A stretch of DNA of 64,000 nt from SAR324 cluster bacterium (lineage in GTDB: Bacteria > SAR324 > NAC60-12). The stretch covers positions 1 through 64,000 of the forward strand of contig JANQJU010000033.1 in NCBI GenBank assembly GCA_028281495.1, read 5' to 3'. The notes under the pieces were generated by a model. That model worked only from the letters and a program-made list of their open reading frames with translations, made no database searches and was not told the origin of the DNA. The translations under genes and the position numbers were made by a program. Positions 14,565-27,458 of this stretch are shown one piece after another; within the stretch, counting starts at the first letter, position 1; each line of letters begins with the position of its first letter.

Positions 14565-14620
14565 ACTATTCAAACGGACTGACTATTCATTTCAACAGAC
14601 TGACTATTCATTTCAATTGA
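14565..14620. repeat. Short tandem repeat, 21-bp unit
   Basis: The unit ACTATTCATTTCAACAGACTG occurs at 14582-14602, in a shortened form (17 bp) at 14565-14581, and partly again from 14603. It lies between the Coq4-like gene and the end of the AAA gene. It could be an operator array for the Coq4-like gene or replication slippage. Confidence 0.6.
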
Positions 14621-14679: not shown

Positions 14680-16407
14680 TCACTCCACACGGTCTCGATA
14701 CTTGGCAGGCACGATGTTGCGATAGGTACAATAGCGAGCGGCTTCCCATGCTTGAGCTTCTCGCTCTTTGATAACCACTCCCAAGTTGATATTCCGGATC
14801 AGTTCGAGGATATCAAACTCGGTTTCCACCATGATTTCAGACACTACTTCCGTGGCTAACCCTCGCATGTTGTCATTGGAATAGCCTTCCACAAGCTTCA
14901 AAATTTCTTCTTTGATTTGTGCGTATTCGGGGGAGCCAAAAATTTGCTCATCACTGAAATCTGCGATAACTGCTGATTTTTGTTTGAGATGGTCGATCAA
15001 ATAGCGAGTCAGGTTTTGTGTTTCATCCTTGAAGGCCAGATCGAACATCTTGAGCAGAAATTCCCATTTGAAATCTCCTTCCAGGTCGAAGATTCCAATC
15101 TTGATTTCTAAACGGCGTTGGAAGTCGAGAGGAATACGTTGAGGGCGAGATGTGTCAAAAATCCAAAAGATTTTGCCACGATCTTTTTCATCTCCAATCC
15201 AGTCCAAAAAGGCTCCCATCAATTCCAAGTCGGTTTGATGTCCTTCACCTGTTTGAGGATCAGTGAACATGGTATCGGCTTCGGGTTTGGTGATGATCAA
15301 CTTGTCGAAGGTTTTGGCGACATTTTTAATTTTTTCAACAATGATGAGGGTTTCCCCATACCACTTGGATTTGATATTCCCCAGTTGCATCGCTGGCACA
15401 TTGGCTTCTTTTACAAAAGCCTTAAGTTGAAAGGATTTCCCGGTTCCCGTAGGGCCAGTCAGGATGATCCCTTTCCAAGGAGTGAACTCCATCCTCAGGA
15501 TGAGTTTGGCATAAACAGCTTTGAGTTCTTCATACCCAATGATTTTTTCAAACCCATATTCGGGGTAGAACATTTTGACATGCCCTCCAATGGATTTTTC
15601 AATCAAGCGCGCCACCGAACGATGGATATTCTTTTTAATATCTTGTGGATCCTCACGGAGAATGCCGAGAAGGTTCACCAGCGAAATTCCTGCTGTAGAT
15701 GCTGCAATCTCGTTGATAAAAACTTCCGAAAAACCTTTGGCTTCCTGTTGGTTGACATGGGCAATCAATTGTTTGCGTTGCTCGAAGTTCGGTAAATCCA
15801 CATGGATTTCCCGGAGGTGAGGAATGTCTCGAATGTCGCTATTGAGACTAAAGAAAGAAGTTGTGAGCAGCACAACCATGTTATTGGAATCTCGCACTTC
15901 GTAGTCATCTAACATGCTGCGGGCTTGGCTCATTAACAATTTTTCATCCACGGCCATCTGTTCCGAGGGTTTTGCCGAAAAAATAAGGTCCACATCTTCC
16001 ATGATCACGATCAAGCACTTCACCGATTGCCCTTTTGTTTTTCCAAGCTGACGATAATCCTGAAGCAGTTCCTTGATGAGATGAATCCCCGAAATCATAT
16101 TGTAGAAGGTTTTGTTGAATTGAGAGGCATACTTGGTCTCTAAGTAGTCCTCATATTTGAAAAATTCTTCTTTATGTTGAGGCTGGTAATAGTGAACCCC
16201 TTCGGAGGGATTATAGAGAAGGACGTGATTTTTTTGAGAGAACTTTTCCAGCAGCAACTCTCGGATATTTAAATAACGGGAGGGTTGATTTTCTTCCTGA
16301 ACGAGAAGGATGTCTCGGATGTTTCCGGTGATTGCAAAGAGATTGGTGACCTGCAAACGAACAAACAATTCTTTTAATTCTTCGTACACGTTCATGCTAG
16401 TGGACAT
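14680..16407 (-). CDS. Double-AAA+ protein with split catalytic motifs, last gene of the PspA envelope operon
   Basis: 575 residues with two AAA+-like halves. The N-terminal half keeps a Walker-B-like CLIVIMEDVDLIF (131-143) but has no Walker A. The C-terminal half has a good Walker A, GPTGTGKS (318-325), a pore-loop-like SKWYGET (347-353) and an arginine-finger-like DFQRRLE (428-434), but its Walker B position reads KLIITKPEADTMF without the canonical Asp-Glu. The plan resembles Ycf46-type AAA proteins. The protein has no signal or membrane segment, so it should act in the cytoplasm, perhaps remodelling the PspA polymer encoded just upstream (nine-base gap). GGAG six bases before the ATG supports the start. 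ATPase activity cannot be assumed. Confidence 0.78.
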   Translation of the reverse strand: MSTSMNVYEELKELFVRLQVTNLFAITGNIRDILLVQEENQPSRYLNIRELLLEKFSQKNHVLLYNPSEGVHYYQPQHKEEFFKYEDYLETKYASQFNKTFYNMISGIHLIKELLQDYRQLGKTKGQSVKCLIVIMEDVDLIFSAKPSEQMAVDEKLLMSQARSMLDDYEVRDSNNMVVLLTTSFFSLNSDIRDIPHLREIHVDLPNFEQRKQLIAHVNQQEAKGFSEVFINEIAASTAGISLVNLLGILREDPQDIKKNIHRSVARLIEKSIGGHVKMFYPEYGFEKIIGYEELKAVYAKLILRMEFTPWKGIILTGPTGTGKSFQLKAFVKEANVPAMQLGNIKSKWYGETLIIVEKIKNVAKTFDKLIITKPEADTMFTDPQTGEGHQTDLELMGAFLDWIGDEKDRGKIFWIFDTSRPQRIPLDFQRRLEIKIGIFDLEGDFKWEFLLKMFDLAFKDETQNLTRYLIDHLKQKSAVIADFSDEQIFGSPEYAQIKEEILKLVEGYSNDNMRGLATEVVSEIMVETEFDILELIRNINLGVVIKEREAQAWEAARYCTYRNIVPAKYRDRVE

Positions 16408-16416
16408 GCAGTCTCC

Positions 16417-17211
16417 CTATAAATTGCGCTCTTGGTTTTTCTGTTGTTGCGGTGTACCTGGGGTTTGGCCTGCTTCTTGAGCACTTTTTGCAGCTTTCCT
16501 CGCACGAGCCAACTCCAATGCCTTATTTTTAGCCGCAGAACTTTTGCCAAGCTGCTTGTATTTCTCCATAGAACGCTGTGCATCCGTGCCTGCAATTTCA
16601 GCCGTGATTTCTGCCTTGGCCCGGAGGTTTCGAGTGCGCTCTCGGATCGCATTGATCGGACTGCGATCAATGGAAGTTTCCAACCCCGCCAGTTGTTGAT
16701 TGAGCGCAATTTCAGCTTTGGCCAATTCAGTATCCGCTATGGTTTCGGCTTCCTCTTTTTTGAGATTTTCCTTTTCCTGCTGCAACCGTTTCAAGTCCAA
16801 CATGTAATCGCTCAAGCGACCTTCTAGGCGTTCAATATCGGTTTCCAGTTCTGCTTGTTTGGCATCAATTTCGTGTTTCCGTGCATCATAGCGCGTGAAA
16901 TCTTCCAAGGCCTGTTGATCATTTTCATTTTCTGACAAGACCTCAACAATCCCCTCTAAGGCCTGCAAGATGTCTTCTTCCTCTTGGTTCAGCGTCTCCA
17001 ATTGTTGCCCTTTTTGAGCAATCATGGCCTTCAGTTGCGAAAGGGCGTTCGTGATTTCATTGATGTTTCGAATCAGATTATCCCGTGTTTCAGCAAACCC
17101 CGCTTTGATCCCGGCAGAACTGGAGGTGAATACCTCATCGGCTTTGTCACTGATTTCGTGCTCGGTTTTGGTAAAGACATTGGAAAGGTATTTTCCGATC
17201 GCTTTGAACAT
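16417..17211 (-). CDS. PspA/IM30-family membrane-associated coiled-coil protein
   Basis: 264 residues, almost entirely helical. The start MFKAIGKYLSNVFTKTEHEI and the long charged coiled coil (about 30-235) fit the PspA/Vipp1 (ESCRT-III-like) family, although the C-terminal 30 residues are low-complexity and Gln/Ala-rich. PspA proteins polymerise on the inner face of the cytoplasmic membrane and help keep it intact under envelope stress. The usual proteobacterial partners PspB, PspC and PspF are absent. Instead it lies between a membrane coiled-coil protein (17-base gap) and an AAA+ gene (nine-base gap). Family membership is judged from pattern, not alignment. Confidence 0.78.
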   Translation of the reverse strand: MFKAIGKYLSNVFTKTEHEISDKADEVFTSSSAGIKAGFAETRDNLIRNINEITNALSQLKAMIAQKGQQLETLNQEEEDILQALEGIVEVLSENENDQQALEDFTRYDARKHEIDAKQAELETDIERLEGRLSDYMLDLKRLQQEKENLKKEEAETIADTELAKAEIALNQQLAGLETSIDRSPINAIRERTRNLRAKAEITAEIAGTDAQRSMEKYKQLGKSSAAKNKALELARARKAAKSAQEAGQTPGTPQQQKNQERNL

Positions 17212-17228
17212 TGATCCCTCCTATTTTC

Positions 17229-18035
17229 CTAATTGTAAGTGGATGTTTTTTTCAGGTCGGCCATGCTTTTTTGAACCGCAACGGCTGCTTCCATTTCCGT
17301 GTGAAAGGATTCAATTGTTTTTTCCGCTTCTTCCATTTCACTGAAATCCGAAGTGGCCGACACCAATTTCAACCGGTTGAGTTCAAAGACATCAATTTTT
17401 TTCTCAAGAACTTGTTTGAATTCATCGAGTTTTTGAGCGTTTTGATCATAAATCTTCAGTTTTTCTTGTGCGACACTGGAATTCTCTGCTTCCCGAACCA
17501 ATTCTTCCCGTTGAAAACCTTTCATCACGTCCAAGATATCCCGCATCTCTTTGAGCAGGGTGGTGCCTTGATCAAATGCATCATTGGCCCCTTCCATAAA
17601 TCGAAATAGTGCGTGCTCGGTAATGATTGTTTGAGATTCCACCGCTTGAGTGAATTCAAAATAGCCTTCCATCAACTGCTGTTTGAGATTTTGGAACCAT
17701 GTCAGTCCAAAGTCTTCAATCTCATGAAACTCATTCAATACTTTTTGCCGTTTGGCTTCTTCATATTCCTGCAAAAACTTTCGTGCCCCTTGTGCAGCAT
17801 AGTTATTTTTATTGAGGTAGAAACTCGTATAGAGGAGTCCAATCGGAATCAAATCAATCAAATGCAGCCAAGCTGGCAATTCGGGAATTTCAATCCCAAA
17901 AATCAATATCGGCAAAAAAACAGCAATCAGAATGTTGTACCAACTGTGTGTGAATCTATGCCACACATACCGTTTCACATAGGAATAACGATTCTCGTAG
18001 TTTAGAGGATCGTCTGAATCGTCTGTGTTCTTCAA
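17229..18035 (-). CDS. Membrane protein with two helices and a cytoplasmic coiled coil
   Basis: 268 residues. Two membrane helices lie near residues 33-50 and 57-74, joined by a very short loop, so both termini should be on the same, probably cytoplasmic, side. The remaining 190 residues are charged and helical with heptad-like spacing. The start is TTG at 18035, supported by GGAG seven bases upstream; no ATG fits. I do not recognise a named family. Its place directly before pspA suggests that it serves as the membrane anchor or partner for PspA, a part played by PspB/PspC in enteric bacteria. That is inference from position and topology. Confidence 0.7.
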   Translation of the reverse strand: MKNTDDSDDPLNYENRYSYVKRYVWHRFTHSWYNILIAVFLPILIFGIEIPELPAWLHLIDLIPIGLLYTSFYLNKNNYAAQGARKFLQEYEEAKRQKVLNEFHEIEDFGLTWFQNLKQQLMEGYFEFTQAVESQTIITEHALFRFMEGANDAFDQGTTLLKEMRDILDVMKGFQREELVREAENSSVAQEKLKIYDQNAQKLDEFKQVLEKKIDVFELNRLKLVSATSDFSEMEEAEKTIESFHTEMEAAVAVQKSMADLKKTSTYN

Positions 18036-18087
18036 TAGTTTACTCCTACCTGTCTAATCTCTCTGTGGGATTCCAGCCCGATCCTCC

Positions 18088-19671
18088 TCAATTGAAGTCA
18101 ATAATCAGGATCTCTACAACATTATTGAGGTTTCGATATTCGTAAACATTTTGATCCGGTTGCCGCTCTGGGGTTCGCGAAACCCCCAACCCCAGATAGG
18201 TCATCCGTTGCTCGTCAACTCCTTTGATATGGGCCAAATAGTCGTATACCGCTTTCGCCATTTTTTCCGTATTTTGAGACACCCGTTCGAGGTTCTGATT
18301 TTGAACGATGGGAGCACGTCCAATCACAGCAATGCGATAATCGTAATTGCTCAACTGTGTGTCATAAATCTGATCAATCACGACTTTGGATTCGGGTTGC
18401 AGTTGTAATCGGCGATTGAATTCAATTTGCAGATTTTCCCGCGTGAATTTGGGCCGATCAATGAGAGACATCCATTCCGTCCGGCTTAAGACAGAGTAGC
18501 TTTTCTTGGCTTCAGGAGGGCGAGGCACCTCTTTGGGATCGTAGGTGTGATAGAGCTGCTGGAGTATTTTGGAATACACAACCGCTTCCGCATCTTCTCC
18601 GGGAATTGGATTGGAAGCGATCGATTTCATCATGCGCAATTTGACTGCAATCGCATCAATCGCATCCAAAATTTTAGCATCGGATGTGGATTTAACAGGG
18701 AATTGAGTATGGACATTCTCAGCCAGAGTATAAAATTTGATGCCATCAAAGGACGCATCGATATCAATGCGATTCATGCCGGTTTGAGTTTCGACTTCTT
18801 CTAAAAAGGGGTTGGTATTGTTTGCATAGTAAACCCCCGCCTCAAAATACCGTTTGAGGAATTGCACCAACACCTTTTCGTTCTTTTTCAAATATTTGCG
18901 ATTCCCCACAAAGACATCAATAATTTTAGCTCGCTTCAATTCACCGCTGTGCATGAGCACCGTGTATCCTTTTTTCTTGGCGCGAGAAATAAACGGTTCC
19001 CATAAACCCACCACGTCATAATCACCGTTGATCAAGCCGTTGTACGTGTCTTCAATATTTTCATGAGCCTTCACATTCCTTCGGTTGAGCAACGATGGGA
19101 CATCTGCATCCACTGCCAACGAGCCCATCATGAATTTTGAAGTAAAAGCCGCCTTCAGTCCTTTCACCTTTTTTAAAGAATCAATGGTAGGAAACTTCGA
19201 TTGGTTTGCCACCACCGCATCAGCCCCCTGTGAATCGGAAGAGGCTGCAAAAATCATGGGGGCCAGTGTGGCCTCTGGCAACGTTCCCAATTGCTCCAGA
19301 TAGTCTCCGATGGGCATCACGCCGATGTGACATTGATCCCCATCGTTCAAATAACGCATTCGTGACGGGTAGTCCGCGCCATCATCAATCAGATTGACTG
19401 CAATTTTTTCTTGCCGAAGGAGCTTTTTGAATTGTTTGGATGCAAGGATGGCGTATCCAAGATAACCGTCATAACATAGGTTGATCGTGTGATCGGCTTG
19501 AAAGCCACCTCCCATATCCACCAGAGTTTGTGTCACAAAATCATCTATGGCCCCAGTTCGATTGAGAGCGACATAAATGCCCCCTGCAATCACTGCGATA
19601 ATGATCACCCAGACGGCAATGATGCGTCCCCATAAAATTTTTCGCTTTGGTTGAGCCATCTCCTCTCTCAT
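18088..19671 (-). CDS. Inner-membrane-anchored substrate-binding protein with OmpA-like C-terminus
   Basis: 527 residues. A single helix (about 14-36) anchors it. Residues 60-330 form an NMT1/SsuA-like periplasmic binding domain (INLCYDGYLGYA at the start, DYDVVGLWEPFISRA in the middle). The C-terminal 100 residues (about 425-527) resemble an OmpA peptidoglycan-binding domain: RIAVIGRAPIV, a helix with SQNTEKMAKAVYDYL, and NNVVEILI at the end, where RRVEI-like endings are usual. No ABC permease gene is nearby. It may sense a ligand in the periplasm while attached to both the inner membrane and the cell wall. The gene begins seven bases after the VWA gene's stop and ends about 50 bases before the next gene. 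Confidence 0.75.
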   Translation of the reverse strand: MREEMAQPKRKILWGRIIAVWVIIIAVIAGGIYVALNRTGAIDDFVTQTLVDMGGGFQADHTINLCYDGYLGYAILASKQFKKLLRQEKIAVNLIDDGADYPSRMRYLNDGDQCHIGVMPIGDYLEQLGTLPEATLAPMIFAASSDSQGADAVVANQSKFPTIDSLKKVKGLKAAFTSKFMMGSLAVDADVPSLLNRRNVKAHENIEDTYNGLINGDYDVVGLWEPFISRAKKKGYTVLMHSGELKRAKIIDVFVGNRKYLKKNEKVLVQFLKRYFEAGVYYANNTNPFLEEVETQTGMNRIDIDASFDGIKFYTLAENVHTQFPVKSTSDAKILDAIDAIAVKLRMMKSIASNPIPGEDAEAVVYSKILQQLYHTYDPKEVPRPPEAKKSYSVLSRTEWMSLIDRPKFTRENLQIEFNRRLQLQPESKVVIDQIYDTQLSNYDYRIAVIGRAPIVQNQNLERVSQNTEKMAKAVYDYLAHIKGVDEQRMTYLGLGVSRTPERQPDQNVYEYRNLNNVVEILIIDFN

Positions 19672-19677
19672 TCCAAT

Positions 19678-20421
19678 TTAAAAATCTTGCGCAATATATT
19701 CCTCAGCACTATCGAACGCCGCTTCTGCCAAAACTAGTTTTTTCGAAGCTGCGACCAATTCATCCACACTGGAGGCTGAAACAAATTGAGTGGTGTGCAT
19801 CAATTGATGTTGTTTCATATCCAGGCCAATTGTACTCACTAAGAGTTTTTGCTCAATCGCCGCGTTCACAGCAAGGTTGACATCTCGTCTTCCGTTCGAT
19901 TCCCCATCGGTGATAATCAAAATGGTATAATCGCCTAAGCCTGCCTGAGTTTCTTTTTGCACGTTTAACATTTGGACTGCTTGATCAACGGCCTCTCCCA
20001 ACGGGGTCTTCCCACCTGCCCGGACTCGCTCAAAGATGGTCTCTAATTGTTCACGAGCCTGATCCACATGAACTAACGAGAGAACGATCCCTTTGTTGAT
20101 TGCAATGATGGCCACATTGTACTCCGTAGGCAATGCCGCGAGAAACTGCCGCAATGCCTCTTTGGCCCGCTCAATCCGCGTGGAATCTCGCTCCTTGACG
20201 ATTGTTTTAAGTTGCTCTTTTCTTCCGAGCAAACGTCCTATGCGTCCAGGTTTTTCTAAGACTTCCTTCTCTTCTCGGACCTTGATGGAAGCATTCATGC
20301 TGCCCGAATCATCGAAGATGATGGTCACATTTTTTCGGTAAAGAGGATTCACCTCTTCCGCCTGAACGAATCCTGCGAGCAACATGAAAATTGTAGCTAG
20401 GGTCACAACTTTGGCTTTCAT
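19678..20421 (-). CDS. Exported von Willebrand factor type A protein
   Basis: 247 residues with a signal peptide (cleavage predicted after FVQA, residue 21) and one VWA domain. All MIDAS residues are visible: D37, S39 and S41 in the DDSGSM motif, T139 in GGKTPLGEA and D172 in IITDGESNG, so the domain should bind a divalent metal and a protein ligand. It ends EEYIAQDF, like the end of the upstream gene product (TFYDEQDF). With no membrane helix after the signal it should be a soluble periplasmic protein. It lies 13 bases after the SBP-OmpA gene and seven before the anchored SBP-OmpA gene, so it probably bridges these two. Confidence 0.85.
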   Translation of the reverse strand: MKAKVVTLATIFMLLAGFVQAEEVNPLYRKNVTIIFDDSGSMNASIKVREEKEVLEKPGRIGRLLGRKEQLKTIVKERDSTRIERAKEALRQFLAALPTEYNVAIIAINKGIVLSLVHVDQAREQLETIFERVRAGGKTPLGEAVDQAVQMLNVQKETQAGLGDYTILIITDGESNGRRDVNLAVNAAIEQKLLVSTIGLDMKQHQLMHTTQFVSASSVDELVAASKKLVLAEAAFDSAEEYIAQDF

Positions 20422-20433
20422 AGGGTACCCTTC

Positions 20434-22140
20434 TCAAAAATCTTGTTCATCATAAAACGTGCTTAGGTCTGCTTCCGCTTTGTAGACAGTCACGGTGAAT
20501 TCAACACGCATGTTTCGTTCAACATCACTTTTACTCCTAGGTTTCGCCACCTCAGGATTGTCGGCTCCTGATGGCACAATCACCATCTGGGCCACGTTCA
20601 AATCCACACCTTCTTTTTTTGCATACTCCACCAGGGCTTCTGCGACTGCATCAGCTCGCGACTGCGATGTTTTCATTGCCGCTTTCTCAATCATGTTGAG
20701 TTCCATTTGGATCAACTGAGAGGACATATTGGGTAAATTCCACGGCTTGGCAGGGTTGGTCACTTTGTTGAGCCAATTTTGTACTTTTTTCAGCGTCTGT
20801 TGGTCTCCTGATTTTTTGCTCTGCACTGCAACACGCCATGCTCTTACGATAGAAACGTCCACATTGCCGACAATCTTGACCACGGCACCGGGGTTGAGCT
20901 TCGCATATTTGATCCCTTCTTGAAATTCGCTCGCATATTGTTTGATATCAAAATTATTCTGATTGGCTTTGAAATAAACGGGGGTGCTGATCAAAACAGA
21001 ACCATGCCCCGATTGGTCTGCACGTTTCACCTCTTTCGCAATCTTAGCCGCCGTTTGTGCAGAAACGGTTTTGATTTGTGCCGTTGTTTCCGTTTTGACA
21101 TTCCAATCCGTTGCGGTAAGGGACACGCGGGAACTCAAAAACCCCAGTTCGACAAAATCTTTTGAAATACGATTTACTTTCTTTTGTAGACTATTGAAAT
21201 TGGTGGGGGATGTTAAAAAGTAATCGCTCTGCTGTTGGTTGTGAAATTTGGTATCTGCAATCATATCGGTCAGATCTTGCACACCCTGACTTCCTTTACC
21301 AAACAGCAAGTTGGCCGTTTTGGTAATCAATGGCTTGTTCTGTAGCTTCCCTTGAGCCGTCACAAAAAAGGCATTCCGAATGCTGGAAAGTTTTGACTTA
21401 TTGGCGTTGGCCCAATCACTTCGAACCAACACAATGTCTTTGATGCTTTCTCTTTGGACTTTGGTTGACGTTCCAATCACAAGACCATCGACGGCTGAAT
21501 TGCCTTCGGTTAAATTCAGCGCATCAGGAAAAATCACAAATGCGATATCGATGTTGGCATCGTTCCGAATCGCATCTTCGGGGGAATTAGGCCCTGTCAA
21601 TTCGGACACGTATTTGAGTTGAATAGGCTGATTTGCTGGACAATTGGCCAATTCTTTTAAGTCTACAAAGTACCCCATATGAGGCCCACCGTATTGAATT
21701 GCGGCGGTCCGTCCGCACCAGTCTTTCAAAGTTTTGATGGTGTTTCTCACCACCACCACATCCCCCCCTGTTGAATCGGTCAAGCTCGTAAAAACCTCCA
21801 TGTTGATACCGCACTTTGCAAACGCCTCTTGAGCCAAAATGGAGGATCCCACCGTTTGTCGGAAAAATGGGGTTTCTCCCTTACAGACAGCCTGGATTTG
21901 TTGAATGGGGTCATCCATCAGTTTCACGCCACCAGGAAACAGCGCTTGGTTATCCAGGGGCAACACGGCCGCTCCCCAAGTGATGGTGGGATAATAATAA
22001 TTGGATTGCACGGGAGCTTTCTGCAAACTTTGCAATTGCTTTTGTTTCGCAAAGGGTTGGGGTTGGATGTAATCCACAGCATGAACCGCTGTCGTGAGAA
22101 CCAGGACTGACAATAAGATAATCCATGATTTGATTTGCAT
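20434..22140 (-). CDS. Exported substrate-binding protein fused to an OmpA-like domain
   Basis: 568 residues, first gene of the envelope operon. A Sec signal peptide (about 21 residues) is followed by an NMT1/SsuA-like binding domain (about 50-290; FFRQTVGSSILAQEAFAK, GGDVVVVRNTIKTLKDW) and a C-terminal OmpA-like domain (about 385-552). The OmpA part has the opening strand STPVYFKANQNNFDI, a central VKIVGNVD, an unusual insert of about 60 residues, the SRADAVAEALVEYA helix and the closing NMRVEFTV. OmpA-like domains usually hold peptidoglycan through a conserved Asp/Arg pair. An AAGGT site precedes the ATG. Its last residues YDEQDF echo the end of the VWA protein. No transporter genes accompany it. 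Confidence 0.78.
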   Translation of the reverse strand: MQIKSWIILLSVLVLTTAVHAVDYIQPQPFAKQKQLQSLQKAPVQSNYYYPTITWGAAVLPLDNQALFPGGVKLMDDPIQQIQAVCKGETPFFRQTVGSSILAQEAFAKCGINMEVFTSLTDSTGGDVVVVRNTIKTLKDWCGRTAAIQYGGPHMGYFVDLKELANCPANQPIQLKYVSELTGPNSPEDAIRNDANIDIAFVIFPDALNLTEGNSAVDGLVIGTSTKVQRESIKDIVLVRSDWANANKSKLSSIRNAFFVTAQGKLQNKPLITKTANLLFGKGSQGVQDLTDMIADTKFHNQQQSDYFLTSPTNFNSLQKKVNRISKDFVELGFLSSRVSLTATDWNVKTETTAQIKTVSAQTAAKIAKEVKRADQSGHGSVLISTPVYFKANQNNFDIKQYASEFQEGIKYAKLNPGAVVKIVGNVDVSIVRAWRVAVQSKKSGDQQTLKKVQNWLNKVTNPAKPWNLPNMSSQLIQMELNMIEKAAMKTSQSRADAVAEALVEYAKKEGVDLNVAQMVIVPSGADNPEVAKPRSKSDVERNMRVEFTVTVYKAEADLSTFYDEQDF

Positions 22141-22311
22141 AGCTTTTACCTTATGAGGCGTGATGTGAATCGTACTACTATTTTGGAAAGTCTCTTCGAA
22201 TGGAAAACGCCAGTTTAAGAAAATTCAACCAACAGGCCAATAAAAATATCGATACTAATGAGGATAAGATTGAATTCGACCGAAAGATCGCTCCATCACA
22301 AAGCAGACTTG

Positions 22312-23769
22312 TTAGAGCGACTGCCCCTGCATGATCAATTTCTGCAAAGCCTTAGCATCTGCAATGTAAGCCGCTTCTTCCATTTGATCGAGTAGGGCCG
22401 AAAAGGGTGAGCTGTGGTTTTCACAAAGCAAGCGCATGGCATCGAGTTGATCGAGCAGTTCTTCAGTGTTGATGATCGGGACTTGGGAGAGTTGGTTCAG
22501 TTCCTTAAGCAACTGCACCTTGGCCTCAACAGGCAAAGGGGGAAGGGCTGAAGACGTTTGTGGAACGTCCATGCTTTTTTCAGGTTTGAGGTATTGAGAA
22601 AGCAAAGGAAACAATTTTTGAAAATTGAGAGGTTTGGTGAGGTACGCTGAAAATCCGACGGCCTCCGCTTGTTCCTTCTGCTCGCTCAAGGCATCAGCAG
22701 AAAGGGCCACGATAGGAACATGGGATACTTTGGGGTTGTGGCGAAGCATTTTGGTGGCAGTGACCCCGTCCATTCCAGGCATGTGTAAATCCATTAAGAT
22801 GAGATGAGGTGTGTGCCCTTGCACGTGCAAAGCTAAGGCCCGTTCTACCCCTTCTTCTCCATTGCTAGCAAAGTAGGCTTGCACGCCTTGCTGGCGAAGC
22901 AACGCTCGGATCACTTCTTGATTCAACTGATTGTCTTCCACAACCAACACCACATTATCAGACGCGAAACGAAATTTTTCTACCACCTGTGTACTGGACA
23001 AAGCGGGGGCCGAGTGCGCCGTTTCTAAAGGCAAACACACTGAAAACGTTGATCCTTTCCCAGGTTCGCTTTCGACCTCAATCGTGCCTTCTAAAAGTTC
23101 TACCATGTGTTTGGTGAGAGTCAGACCCAGACCACTCCCTTCATATTGACGGGTGGTGGCATTATCCACCTGCTCAAATGCTTGAAAAATAGAAGCTTGT
23201 TTTTCAGGAGCAATTCCAATTCCCGTGTCAACCACTTGTAATAATAAACGGCCTTGATCACGCATGGCATGGATCTGTACCGAGCCACCTTTGGGAGTGA
23301 ATTTGATGGCATTGGCTGTCAGGTGCATCAGAATTTGGTTGAGCTTGGAGCGATCCGATATAATGAACTCCGGCAAGTCGCTATCGAAATCGTAATTGTA
23401 TTCCAGATGTTTTTCCAAAGCTTGGGTTCGGTGGATATGGTAAATGCCTTGAAACAACTGCTTTAAACTCAATGGCTCTTCAGAAAGCGCCATCTTGCCG
23501 GATTCGATTTTTGAAAGGTCCAGCAGGTTGTTGAGCAGTTCCGTCAGCGTCTCTCCAGCCACATGGATGTTGTTCAAGTAACGCCGAAATTCTGGTGGTA
23601 GATGATACTCCTGAGCCAGTTGCAAAAGAATTTGGCTGAAACCGAGAATGGAATTTAGAGGAGTTCGAATCTCATGACTCATGTTAGCCAAGAATTCGGA
23701 CTTGGCCCGATGGACACTTTCACTAGGAGGCTTTGAATCGGATGGCACGTGAAGATTAGATTGGGTCAT
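22312..23769 (-). CDS. Sensorless hybrid histidine kinase (HisKA-HATPase-REC)
   Basis: 485 residues without membrane helices. The HisKA box holds the phospho-acceptor H32 in MSHEIRTPLNSILGFSQ. N and G boxes follow (NAIKFTPKGG, DTGIGIAPE, GSGLGLTLTK). A receiver domain has its phospho-aspartate in LILMDLHMPGMDG. The C-terminal 85 residues are a helical tail also seen at the end of the kinase at 29642-32656. The start overlaps the stop of the REC-RsbW gene (ATGA), so the two are coupled, and that protein may supply the missing input. It should act in the cytoplasm. Confidence 0.92.
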   Translation of the reverse strand: MTQSNLHVPSDSKPPSESVHRAKSEFLANMSHEIRTPLNSILGFSQILLQLAQEYHLPPEFRRYLNNIHVAGETLTELLNNLLDLSKIESGKMALSEEPLSLKQLFQGIYHIHRTQALEKHLEYNYDFDSDLPEFIISDRSKLNQILMHLTANAIKFTPKGGSVQIHAMRDQGRLLLQVVDTGIGIAPEKQASIFQAFEQVDNATTRQYEGSGLGLTLTKHMVELLEGTIEVESEPGKGSTFSVCLPLETAHSAPALSSTQVVEKFRFASDNVVLVVEDNQLNQEVIRALLRQQGVQAYFASNGEEGVERALALHVQGHTPHLILMDLHMPGMDGVTATKMLRHNPKVSHVPIVALSADALSEQKEQAEAVGFSAYLTKPLNFQKLFPLLSQYLKPEKSMDVPQTSSALPPLPVEAKVQLLKELNQLSQVPIINTEELLDQLDAMRLLCENHSSPFSALLDQMEEAAYIADAKALQKLIMQGQSL

Positions 23770-24671
23770 TCGTCCGAGTCTGGTTGAGAAGGATCTGGTA
23801 AGTACTTAATCATGGTAATCTGATTGCCGGATTCATTCCAGCGCACTTCGTCCATATAGGCCCGGATCAGGAGAATGCCTCTTCCACTGAATACCAAAGG
23901 GTTGGAATCTGCAAATGAAGGCAAATTTTCATAATCAAAGCCTATCCCTTCATCCGTCACTTCAAACTCAATCTGGTGTTGCTGGAAGCGGTATACGATT
24001 GTGACTTGTTTTCCTGAGTATTCTGGAGAGGCTTCTCGTTCTTGAAGCATTTCAGCAAACAGATCCCAAGACTCTTCTTTGATTTCTGAGCTGATCCCTA
24101 AGTTTCCATGAATGATCGCATTTCCCAAAGCTTCGATCAAACAAAGATTCAAGCGATTGATGTTCAATCCAAAGGCATCGCATATGGGAGCTAGGTGATC
24201 CTGAAAACACGCGACCACACTGTTGACCAATCCCGTACGACTTTCAATTGCGACCTGGAGTTCTCCCCGATAAAACGGTAGTAGGGTTTTGACCTGTTCT
24301 TTTTCTGAACAAATGGACTCGACCTTCCCTAAGGTCTTTTGAAGATCCAATAGGTCGAATGGTTTTTGTAGAAAATCAAAGGCTCCCAACTTCAAAGCCT
24401 GAATGGCAAATCGGAGTTCCGCATGCCCGGTCATCATGACGACCGGCAATTTGTAGTCTTCTTTACGGATCCGTTCGAACAATTGTAATCCATCCAACCG
24501 AGGCATTTTGATATCCGTCAAGACCATGTCAAACTGATGGGGAACTTCGGCAAATATCTCCCATGCTTGTTGACCATCTTGTGCCACCTGCACAGAATAA
24601 CCTTTGATTGTGAGCCGGCGTTCCAACATTTGTCGCACTTGGGCTTCGTCATCCACTAATAGGATGTTCAT
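23766..24671 (-). CDS. Response regulator with RsbW-like ATPase output domain
   Basis: 301 residues. The N-terminal receiver is complete (DD at 7-8, D53 in LTDIKMP, K in FLQKPFD). The C-terminal part (about 150-295) is a HATPase_c_2 domain of the RsbW/SpoIIAB type, with the N-box EALGNAIIHGNLG and the G-box DEGIGFDYENLP ... GRGILLIRAYMD. RsbW-type ATPases phosphorylate STAS antagonists and hold sigma factors or other partners, so phosphorylation of the receiver may gate a partner switch. A STAS gene lies in the same cluster at 26982-27335. A four-base overlap couples it to the hybrid kinase that follows. Confidence 0.9.
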   Translation of the reverse strand: MNILLVDDEAQVRQMLERRLTIKGYSVQVAQDGQQAWEIFAEVPHQFDMVLTDIKMPRLDGLQLFERIRKEDYKLPVVMMTGHAELRFAIQALKLGAFDFLQKPFDLLDLQKTLGKVESICSEKEQVKTLLPFYRGELQVAIESRTGLVNSVVACFQDHLAPICDAFGLNINRLNLCLIEALGNAIIHGNLGISSEIKEESWDLFAEMLQEREASPEYSGKQVTIVYRFQQHQIEFEVTDEGIGFDYENLPSFADSNPLVFSGRGILLIRAYMDEVRWNESGNQITMIKYLPDPSQPDSDE

Positions 24672-24806
24672 AAAAACTCCTCCATATGTGAAACCGGGGG
24701 AATGCTATTGGACGTCATAGGGTCCAGCAACAAGGGAGACTCTCAATGATCATAGTTAAATCATAGGTTCTTGAAAGACAAGCTAGGGACAGAAGCAGGT
24801 AAGGAC

Positions 24807-25958
24807 TCAGATTTTTCGATAGATGGCCGGTTCTACATATGCATACGGATTTTGGATACGACCTAAGGATTCCGATTTCCCAATGAACAGATATCCTCCA
24901 GGGGCCGTGTGCTCATACATTCGTCTGACAAGAGCTTGCACAGTCTGCTGGTCAAAATAAATCATCACATTGCGACAAAAAATAAGATGGAAGGGCTGTT
25001 TGAAGGGGAACTGTTGGTTCATCAGATTGAACCGGCGGAACACGACTTCATTACGAACCTCTGCTTTCACCTGCCATTGATCGTTCCCATGTTTAGTAAA
25101 ATAACGATTACGCAGTGCCACTGGAATCCGATGCACACGCTCGGCATCATAGACTCCAGCTGTCGCAGTGGCTAACGCCCGTTGAGAAATATCGGTCGCC
25201 AACAAGCCTGCTTGCCACGAGCTATATTCCACTCCGAGGTGTTCCATCAAATTAATGATGAGGCCATAGGGTTCCTCTCCACTGGATGCCGCAGCACACC
25301 ACACTCTCAGATCCAACGGGCCGTTGCTTCGGATTTGATTCAGCACATCGGGCAACGCCGTCTTTCGCATGAAATCAAAATGCTCAGATTCCCGGAAGAA
25401 ATAAGTATGATTGGTAGAAATCATTTCAGCCAACGTGACGAGTTCTTTTCCGCTACGATCAGCGAGGAGGTGTTCATAATACTCCTTGAAGCTCGTCATT
25501 TGGGCTTGCCTCACATACTTCGAAAGCCGTGTCACCAATAACCCCCGCTTCTGTTCACTCAAATTGATGCCAAAACGATTATAAATCAGATCTCGCATGA
25601 GCTTGAATTCTTCATTACTGATGCTCAAAGCTTGATTGGAGGGGGTCATTTTAGTCTCCGACGCTAGTATTCGTTGGGGTGAAGAGGTTACCGCCCTGGG
25701 GGTTACTCTTTGTTGAGTCTTGGCCTGTTGATTCTGCCGCGTGTACGAAGTTTTGCTCGTCAATGAAGGAATGTTGCTTTGTAGTTCGTTCTGTATCACT
25801 TTCACAGAAACCCCGGTTGTTTCGGCATCCCGTTGGCCCTCTTCAATTGCTTTTTGGCAGTAATGAAAATCACCAAAATAACTTTTCCCACCCCACACTT
25901 GCACCAGACATATCGGTCCGGCACATTGGTTCTCATTGGTATGACTTTCACATCTCAT
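24807..25958 (-). CDS. cheR: CheR-type protein-glutamate methyltransferase with Cys-containing N-terminal extension
   Basis: 383 residues from the ATG at 25958, with GGAG six bases upstream. The CheR core starts near residue 112 (SNEEFKLMRDLIYNRFGI) and has the SAM-binding RVWCAAASSGEEPYGL and the HLIFCRNVMIYFD motif. CheR methylates glutamates of chemoreceptors. The first 110 residues are unusual: four cysteines within the first 35 residues (pattern C-x8-C-x4-C-x16-C), then a Gln/Thr/Ser-rich linker. No chemoreceptor or CheA gene lies in the window, so the substrate is encoded elsewhere or is atypical. It is flanked by cheV and the REC-RsbW gene, all on the same strand. Confidence 0.9.
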   Translation of the reverse strand: MRCESHTNENQCAGPICLVQVWGGKSYFGDFHYCQKAIEEGQRDAETTGVSVKVIQNELQSNIPSLTSKTSYTRQNQQAKTQQRVTPRAVTSSPQRILASETKMTPSNQALSISNEEFKLMRDLIYNRFGINLSEQKRGLLVTRLSKYVRQAQMTSFKEYYEHLLADRSGKELVTLAEMISTNHTYFFRESEHFDFMRKTALPDVLNQIRSNGPLDLRVWCAAASSGEEPYGLIINLMEHLGVEYSSWQAGLLATDISQRALATATAGVYDAERVHRIPVALRNRYFTKHGNDQWQVKAEVRNEVVFRRFNLMNQQFPFKQPFHLIFCRNVMIYFDQQTVQALVRRMYEHTAPGGYLFIGKSESLGRIQNPYAYVEPAIYRKI

Positions 25959-26056
25959 CAATTTCTCCGGTTAGCTTTTCTGACGTTCTAACTTATTCCT
26001 AGTGATAAAATCTCAGACTGTAGAGATATCCACAAAGCATCAAGACCTTTCACACG

Positions 26057-26989
26057 CTATAAACAGAAACGATCTACAAGATCAATCAGATCATTGATAT
26101 CGTTTTTCGACAGATAGGCATCGGCACGCACTTGCTCACATTTCAGAGCCATCTGGGTAGTGATCAGTGAGGAAAGGACTATGACCTTCACATCCGGGAC
26201 CTCAGACTTGATTCGCTTGCATAAAGTGAGACCATCCATGCCCGGCATTTCAATATCCGTGATAACAATAATGAGATAATTTGTAATTGCTTTCCCTTCC
26301 GTAGCAGCCTTCTTTTGTAAATCGACAATGGCTTGATAAACAGCGGCACCGTTATCGAACTGGGTGATGGAAGAATAGTTGGCTTTGAGTAATCGGCGCT
26401 CGATCTGTTCACGGATCAAACGCGAATCATCCACGACCATAAGTTTGATATCTCTGCGTTGCACTCCCTTGCGAGCTTCTTCGGGTGTGTCAGGGCGTTC
26501 TGCTCGGCGATCTGAAGAAAGCTCGCCGGTAATGCGCTCTAAAATGCTTTCAAAATCCACCATCAACACCTGCCGGGTATCCATGATCGCGATGCCGGTA
26601 AAATTATTCCCGTTTCGATTGGTTGCACTCGATGGCGGTTGAATGTCGTCCCATGAAATGCGATGGATCTTATCCACCCCATCCACCAAAAATCCGGTAA
26701 TCGCATTGTTGAATTCACACACCAAAATGATCTGTCGAACCCCTGCAGGTTCTTTAGGAGGCACTTGAAGGTGTGCATTCAGATCAATCAATGGGATGGA
26801 AACTCCTTGAAATAAAAAATTACCTTTCAACGAGGGATGCGAATCGGGAAGAAACGTGATGAGATTGGGTTCATATTTGAGAATTTGGCGGACTTTGAGA
26901 ACATTCACCCCAAAACTTTGGTTGCCTAAAAAAAGTTCTAAGACCTCGATTTCATTTGTTCCCGCTTCTAATAATATACCATCAGTCAT
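26057..26989 (-). CDS. cheV: CheV-type coupling protein (CheW-REC)
   Basis: 310 residues from the ATG at 26989, with GGAGG five bases upstream; the start overlaps the STAS gene by eight bases. A CheW-like domain (about 15-160; ELFLGNQSFGVNVLKVRQIL, then GNFLFQGVSIPLIDLN) is followed by a receiver (about 180-305; DD in LMVVDDSRLIREQ, phospho-Asp in IVITDIEMPGMDG). CheV links chemoreceptors to CheA and adapts the complex by phosphorylation. The order STAS-cheV-cheR suggests one transcriptional unit that connects chemotaxis-like coupling to partner switching. Confidence 0.92.
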   Translation of the reverse strand: MTDGILLEAGTNEIEVLELFLGNQSFGVNVLKVRQILKYEPNLITFLPDSHPSLKGNFLFQGVSIPLIDLNAHLQVPPKEPAGVRQIILVCEFNNAITGFLVDGVDKIHRISWDDIQPPSSATNRNGNNFTGIAIMDTRQVLMVDFESILERITGELSSDRRAERPDTPEEARKGVQRRDIKLMVVDDSRLIREQIERRLLKANYSSITQFDNGAAVYQAIVDLQKKAATEGKAITNYLIIVITDIEMPGMDGLTLCKRIKSEVPDVKVIVLSSLITTQMALKCEQVRADAYLSKNDINDLIDLVDRFCL

Positions 26990-27335
26990 GGATTCCTCCA
27001 TTTAGCTTCATCAAAGCTTCCATTTCATTGGAATAAAAGATCAGATACCGATCCAATTGAGCAACGTGAAACAGGTTACGAACTACAGGGCCAACATTAC
27101 AAATCACTAGTTCTTTTTGGAAACTCTCAGCAATTTTGAATGCAGCCACCATCAATCCCAATCCTGCCGAACTTACATAGTGCACTTTTTCCAAATTGAT
27201 AACAATCCCTTTGAGCGCCGGATCTTGAAGTAGAGTGTTGAGATACTCTTTAAAAGGGATTTCCTCTTCTAAACTAATTTTCCCTTCAAGAAAAATGACG
27301 CCGACCTGTCTGTCAATGCGGTGTGTCAAGTGCAT
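26982..27335 (-). CDS. STAS-domain anti-sigma factor antagonist
   Basis: 117 residues from the ATG at 27335, which has a weak AGG site upstream and gives the normal STAS length; the frame stays open upstream but begins without ribosome site. The fold core is clear: VGVIFLEGKISLEEE at the start, IVINLEKVHYVSSAGLGLMV with the phosphorylatable serine pair (S55/S56), and the closing FHVAQLDRYLIFY. Such proteins are phosphorylated by RsbW-type kinases and bind them when unphosphorylated. Two RsbW-like proteins occur in the window (23766-24671 and 45554-47668). It overlaps cheV by eight bases. Confidence 0.9.
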   Translation of the reverse strand: MHLTHRIDRQVGVIFLEGKISLEEEIPFKEYLNTLLQDPALKGIVINLEKVHYVSSAGLGLMVAAFKIAESFQKELVICNVGPVVRNLFHVAQLDRYLIFYSNEMEALMKLNGGIHD

Positions 27336-27458
27336 GGATTGCCTATCATTGTAATGAAAAGGAAGCGAATGATCTGCTAATTGCAGTTCAGGAATCATAT
27401 TAGCAACAAGATAAACATAATCACAACACAGAAACAACACAAGTACAAAAATAAAATC

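Follow-up and report, generated by a model that had tools for sequence, protein, structure and literature searches.

A six-gene operon of a SAR324 bacterium encoding a PspA-like protein, a double AAA+ protein, a VWA protein and paired SBP-OmpA proteins, and its relatives in planctomycetes, plasmids and megaphages

The closest described counterpart of the operon presented here is a gene neighbourhood theme in which PspA and a double AAA+ protein are accompanied by a PBPB-OmpA protein and an ABC importer, for instance around OGG56892.1 (Ravi et al. 2024, PMC11237479). The same study noted that it is unknown how the assembly of PspA is controlled where an AAA protein is lacking. The terms VWA, SBP and TelA do not occur in its main text. 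The operon lies in a SAR324 cluster genome, within a stretch of 64,000 nucleotides that was analysed as a whole and is referred to as the window. It shares with the published theme a PspA-like protein, a double AAA+ protein with an inactive N-terminal copy and a solute- and peptidoglycan-binding protein; its planctomycete relatives share the ABC ATPase and permease too. In contrast to the theme, the window adds a VWA protein, a second solute-binding protein with an OmpA-like end (SBP-OmpA) and a membrane coiled-coil protein (mcc), contains no importer and has lost its Walker-B Asp. What is new relative to the published text is the VWA protein, the paired SBP-OmpA proteins, mcc, the exchange of PspA for TelA, the carriage on plasmids and megaphages, and the losses specific to the window.

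Two better-known systems are more distant. The enteric Psp system (pspF-pspABC) has a PspA-type protein in common with the window, but neither pspB, pspC nor pspF is found among the six genes, as had been concluded from the sequence alone, and the PspA-like protein remains under the PF04012 cut-off. With ESCRT-III/Vps4 (CdvB/CdvC) the likeness is one of analogy, namely a polymer-forming fold family with an AAA+ partner, whereas the window AAA+ protein is doubled, has no detectable MIT domain and is scored by the CdvC model at 38 bits for a cut-off of 650.

Layout of the operon

Six minus-strand open reading frames at positions 14680-22140 of the window were verified as real and correctly placed. 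Following the direction of transcription, they are named sbpA, vwa, sbpB, mcc, pspA and aaa (Table 1). The intergenic gaps, counted from the end of aaa up to sbpA, are 9, 17, 52, 6 and 12 bases, in agreement with the tight same-strand spacing described in the sequence-only reading. The cluster is not due to chance because the same gene order recurs in unrelated genomes. The GC content of the operon resembles that of the flanking DNA in the window. No sigma-70-like promoter was listed in the interval 5' of sbpA. In PADLOC, the matches were confined to weak ones with coiled-coil, VWA or ATPase proteins, and no known anti-phage defence system was recognised. Upstream, on the same strand (22312-27440), genes resembling by eye those for a histidine kinase, a response regulator and CheR-, CheW- and STAS-like proteins are found. 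Immediately downstream of the operon, at 14572-14616, a direct repeat unit of about 19 bases (ttgaaatgaatagtcagtc) occurs twice.

Table 1. Coordinates of the operon features in the window
Feature	Position	Strand	Basis
sbpA, SBP-OmpA protein, exported	20434..22140	-	signal-peptide-like N-terminus by eye
vwa, exported VWA protein, MIDAS intact	19678..20421	-	PF13519
vwa MIDAS span (DDSGS, T139, D172)	19906..20313	-	alignment
sbpB, inner-membrane-anchored solute-binding protein, degenerate OmpA-like end	18088..19671	-	SsuA family
mcc, pair of hydrophobic helices followed by a helical domain	17229..18035	-	own family
pspA-like, four long helices, the N-terminal one with MFKAIGKY	16417..17211	-	distant PspA/ESCRT-III relative
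aaa, double AAA+ protein lacking Walker A in the N half	14680..16407	-	PF00004
aaa C-half Walker A GPTGTGKS	15433..15456	-	sequence motif
aaa Walker B LIITKPEAD, Asp to Pro	15274..15300	-	compared with 13 homologues
gap 5' of sbpA, presumed promoter region	22141..22311	-	position

Proteins of the operon

The initial identification of the fifth gene product as PspA was retained in part. The protein is below the curated PF04012 cut-off and has no Pfam or NCBIfam match, the single PF04012 match of the window genome being below cut-off and on a different contig; kinship to PspA appears by profile-profile comparison only. A profile of 19 relatives was aligned by hhalign to a target profile combining four planctomycete PF04012 proteins with Vipp1 and E. 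coli PspA, with a probability of 87% (E 3.7e-6, 217 colinear columns; 0.6% for the reversed control). An earlier run with a profile of 11 relatives had given 61% to PspA. The AlphaFold model contains helices at residues 3-29, 32-94, 99-177 and 184-248 in a PspA-like plan, with a pLDDT of 72 (moderate confidence). In a Foldseek search of the PDB, Vipp1/PspA entries were within the first thirty, mixed with SMC coiled coils, and no match was significant (best E 0.02, Vipp1 0.04). Searching PDB sequences with the profile yielded chance coiled coils. The colinear alignment, the predicted helix plan and the recurrence of a pspA-aaa dyad (see below) support the window protein as PspA-like, i.e. a distant PspA/ESCRT-III relative outside PF04012. 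A true PF04012 PspA adjoins an aaa homologue in one genome (G135).

The aaa product matches PF00004 (2e-17) and its matches are classical AAA/CDC48- and CdvC-like; curated models do not assign it to the MoxR-type AAA+ proteins. Its two halves are homologous (hhalign 93%, reversed 0.3%), the N half being a diverged AAA copy. The Walker B sequence ends in KPEAD in the window and in DEAD in each of the 13 further homologues where it could be located. Without this Asp, hydrolysis may be impaired, and the window protein perhaps binds ATP but hydrolyses it weakly. Neither Walker motif is visible in a second planctomycete aaa copy (L130). A functional VWA-AAA pair, envisaged at first sight, found no support: the AAA is CDC48-like and tracks pspA, and vwa tracks sbpA and sbpB and occurs without AAA on Vibrio plasmids.

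Searched alone, sbpA and both OmpA-like ends are under Pfam cut-offs; they were recognised via alignment with orthologues matching NMT1 and OmpA, such as a Vibrio sbpB orthologue that matches PF00691 (OmpA) at 1e-16. A curated model places sbpB in the SsuA family (1.5e-10). The OmpA-like end of sbpA retains Asp428 and Arg495, and that of sbpB has lost the Arg conserved elsewhere. The vwa product matches PF13519 (1e-9), its MIDAS is intact as originally read, and it does not have the C-terminal membrane segment present in most relatives. Beyond its two N-terminal hydrophobic helices, mcc is helical and has no Pfam match. Its candidacy as a second PspA/Snf7 relative was unsupported by profile comparison, Foldseek yielding insignificant BAR-like matches only. 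In the tree, the sbpA branch reaches 4.8 changes per site, far above the other cassette members, and given this very long branch the role of sbpA may have shifted.

Planctomycete relatives and proposed function

Strong matches to sbpA (E < 1e-100) were found in 8 of 294 planctomycete genomes; in the phylum of the window, the window genome is alone among 52. The true range of the system is probably wider than the samples covered here, which comprise the window phylum, Planctomycetota, plasmids and viruses. The order sbpA-vwa-sbpB-mcc-pspA with aaa at the locus is found in the planctomycete loci L008, L009, L040, L041 (with L087) and L044. The core order also recurs in a 595-kb phage record and in IMG/VR contigs. 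The neighbourhood is conserved across phyla. An importer, sbpC-permease-ATPase, flanks the core in all same-order loci, whether planctomycete, LR756511 or IMG/VR, with the ATPase about 1 kb away on the opposite strand in L008 and L040. Nearly all relatives have an ABC importer of the SsuA/urea type. This importer, the degenerate Walker B of the window and the mobile distribution had escaped the sequence-only reading.

The locus can be described from these comparisons as two modules, pspA-aaa on the one hand and sbpA-vwa-sbpB-mcc with the importer on the other, because the dyads and the cassettes also occur apart. Adjacent pspA-aaa genes with no SBP cassette beside them are present at six planctomycete loci (L126, L142-L146), which upholds the early association of the AAA+ protein with PspA. 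Conversely, L045 and L048 carry the cassette and importer with no adjacent pspA, which is located elsewhere in the same genome (L126, L007), and L042 and L046 carry sbpA and the importer with no vwa at the locus. A pspA-like gene is present in 11 of the 294 genomes, five of which are among the eight with sbpA (Fisher p=1.4e-6, with genome relatedness ignored). In L142-L146, a flotillin-like gene is near pspA-aaa in 5/5 genomes, accompanied by a YqiJ-like gene in four and a long coiled-coil protein in four (names by eye), a context resembling one reported for PspA (Ravi et al. 2024).

Gene content, gene order, module structure, key residues and the importer beside the cassette in relatives are established by these comparisons at the level of sequence. 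On this basis we tentatively favour, at somewhat less than an even chance, a trans-envelope module for solute sensing or uptake joined to a PspA/ESCRT-III-like coat. The periplasmic SBP-OmpA and VWA proteins would form a wall-tethered scaffold above the inner membrane, to which sbpB and mcc would serve as anchors. A ligand or the state of the wall would be relayed via sbpB and mcc, upon which the PspA-like polymer would nucleate on the cytoplasmic face and stabilise the membrane that surrounds the NitT/TauT-type importer, or give it its shape. Recycling of the polymer would fall to the AAA+ protein, in the manner of Vps4 with ESCRT-III. A bacterial ESCRT-III-type protein would thereby receive input from wall-bound proteins of the periplasm and have an AAA+ partner dedicated to it. 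The copy in the window probably represents a divergent sensor/coat version, because its importer is unlinked and the Walker B of its AAA+ protein is damaged: the ABC ATPase and permease are absent from the window operon. An SsuA/urea-type importer is encoded elsewhere in the window genome (C61; L085, 8539-12566), unlinked to the six genes and downstream of an arginase-family gene resembling by eye a guanidine hydrolase.

The same linkage to an ABC importer in nearly all relatives, together with SBP folds in three genes, would also be expected of a high-affinity importer with wall-tethered accessory SBPs, for which the PspA-like and AAA+ proteins merely prevent membrane leakage and take no part in sensing. 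This alternative, possible but doubtful in our estimation, agrees with L045 and L048, where pspA is elsewhere, and with the megaphage modules, which retain SBP-OmpA, permease and ATPase. It accounts poorly for the window, which has no linked importer yet keeps vwa, mcc, pspA and aaa, and VWA proteins are unusual in importers.

Plasmid and megaphage forms

Homologues of sbpA are carried by six Vibrio plasmids. The three that were examined display the order ATPase-sbpA-vwa-sbpB-mcc-TelA-sbpC-permease near a PRTRC gene, i.e. a core homologous to that of the relatives described above (sbpA-vwa-sbpB-mcc-X-sbpC-permease) with TelA as X. On the megaplasmid cassette (L014, 8973-17757), TelA (PF05816, 3e-49) occupies the pspA slot, and aaa was not found on the Vibrio megaplasmid searched. 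On V. coralliilyticus p380 (L083, 9869-12914), the cassette is reduced to a lone sbpA-vwa pair close to an integrase. When plasmids (Paenibacillus and others) were searched for the AAA protein, the contexts retrieved were unrelated.

The swap of TelA for PspA in an otherwise matching cassette is a testable hint at the role of TelA. Together with the mobile carriage, it could indicate an envelope-stress or toxic-anion tolerance system with a role related to TelA loci. We regard this as unlikely, since neither the window genome nor the planctomycetes tested yielded a TelA protein (PF05816), and since TelA as a PspA homologue was unsupported, a single-sequence TelA profile showing no similarity to the PspA-like family. 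More improbable still is a decaying, horizontally acquired cassette without function in its present organism, as could be read from the sole copy among the genomes of the phylum, the long branch and the loss of the Walker-B Asp, the sbpB Arg, the VWA membrane tail and the importer, but against which stand six intact, tightly spaced ORFs, the retained MIDAS and Walker A, and a GC content like the surroundings.

The 595-kb record LR756511.1, deposited as an uncultured phage and containing a terminase match, keeps the core order from sbpA to the ATPase, pspA included; aaa was not found on it. The IMG/VR contigs L094, L097, L099 and L101 have the core in the same order, three of them with aaa directly downstream. 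They are taken as viral from their inclusion in IMG/VR and from phage-like neighbouring genes, because no PF03237 terminase was found in them.

Reduced modules sharing SBP-OmpA, permease, ABC ATPase and a membrane coiled-coil protein are found in megaphages; in contrast to the window, no vwa or aaa is nearby and the coiled-coil protein has membrane segments. In the isolated megaphage Bacillus phage G (L103, 163000-182000), gp243-gp250 include a permease, an ATPase, a PspA-like membrane coiled-coil protein and two SBP-OmpA proteins, gp247 aligning to the PspA profile at 42% (reversed 0.1%). An SBP-OmpA homologue is present in fifteen Lak records and in a 735-kb record (two accessions). The coiled-coil protein, SBP-OmpA, permease and ATPase are consecutive both in Lak-B1 (L154, 5320-14134) and in the 735-kb phage LR756501 (L155, 5844-11659). 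The Lak coiled-coil protein is PspA-like by profile (88%, against 4% reversed), and that of the 735-kb phage showed no PspA similarity when compared singly. A pooled megaphage coiled-coil profile giving 96% to PspA was discounted owing to its uneven four-row alignment, and the phage G and Lak proteins are called PspA-like from their individual comparisons. A homology of gp246-like proteins with the gene 3' of aaa in the planctomycete loci L049 and L052 was unsupported. Transporters, permeases and OmpA go unmentioned in the main texts of Al-Shayeb 2020, Devoto 2019 and the 2024 Lak classification.

That phage G, Lak phages and the 595- and 735-kb phage records contain the importer module raises the question of how megaphages handle the host envelope. 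It is conceivable, if doubtful, that bacteria share with megaplasmids and with several of the very largest phages a mobile envelope module coupling a wall-tethered SsuA-type importer to an interchangeable membrane-coat protein (PspA-like/ESCRT-III or TelA), by means of which megaphages would hold the host envelope, or provision it anew, in the course of long infections. In the Lak-B1 stretch, TAG must be read as Gln and the ATPase gene seems to be split by HNH-like ORFs.
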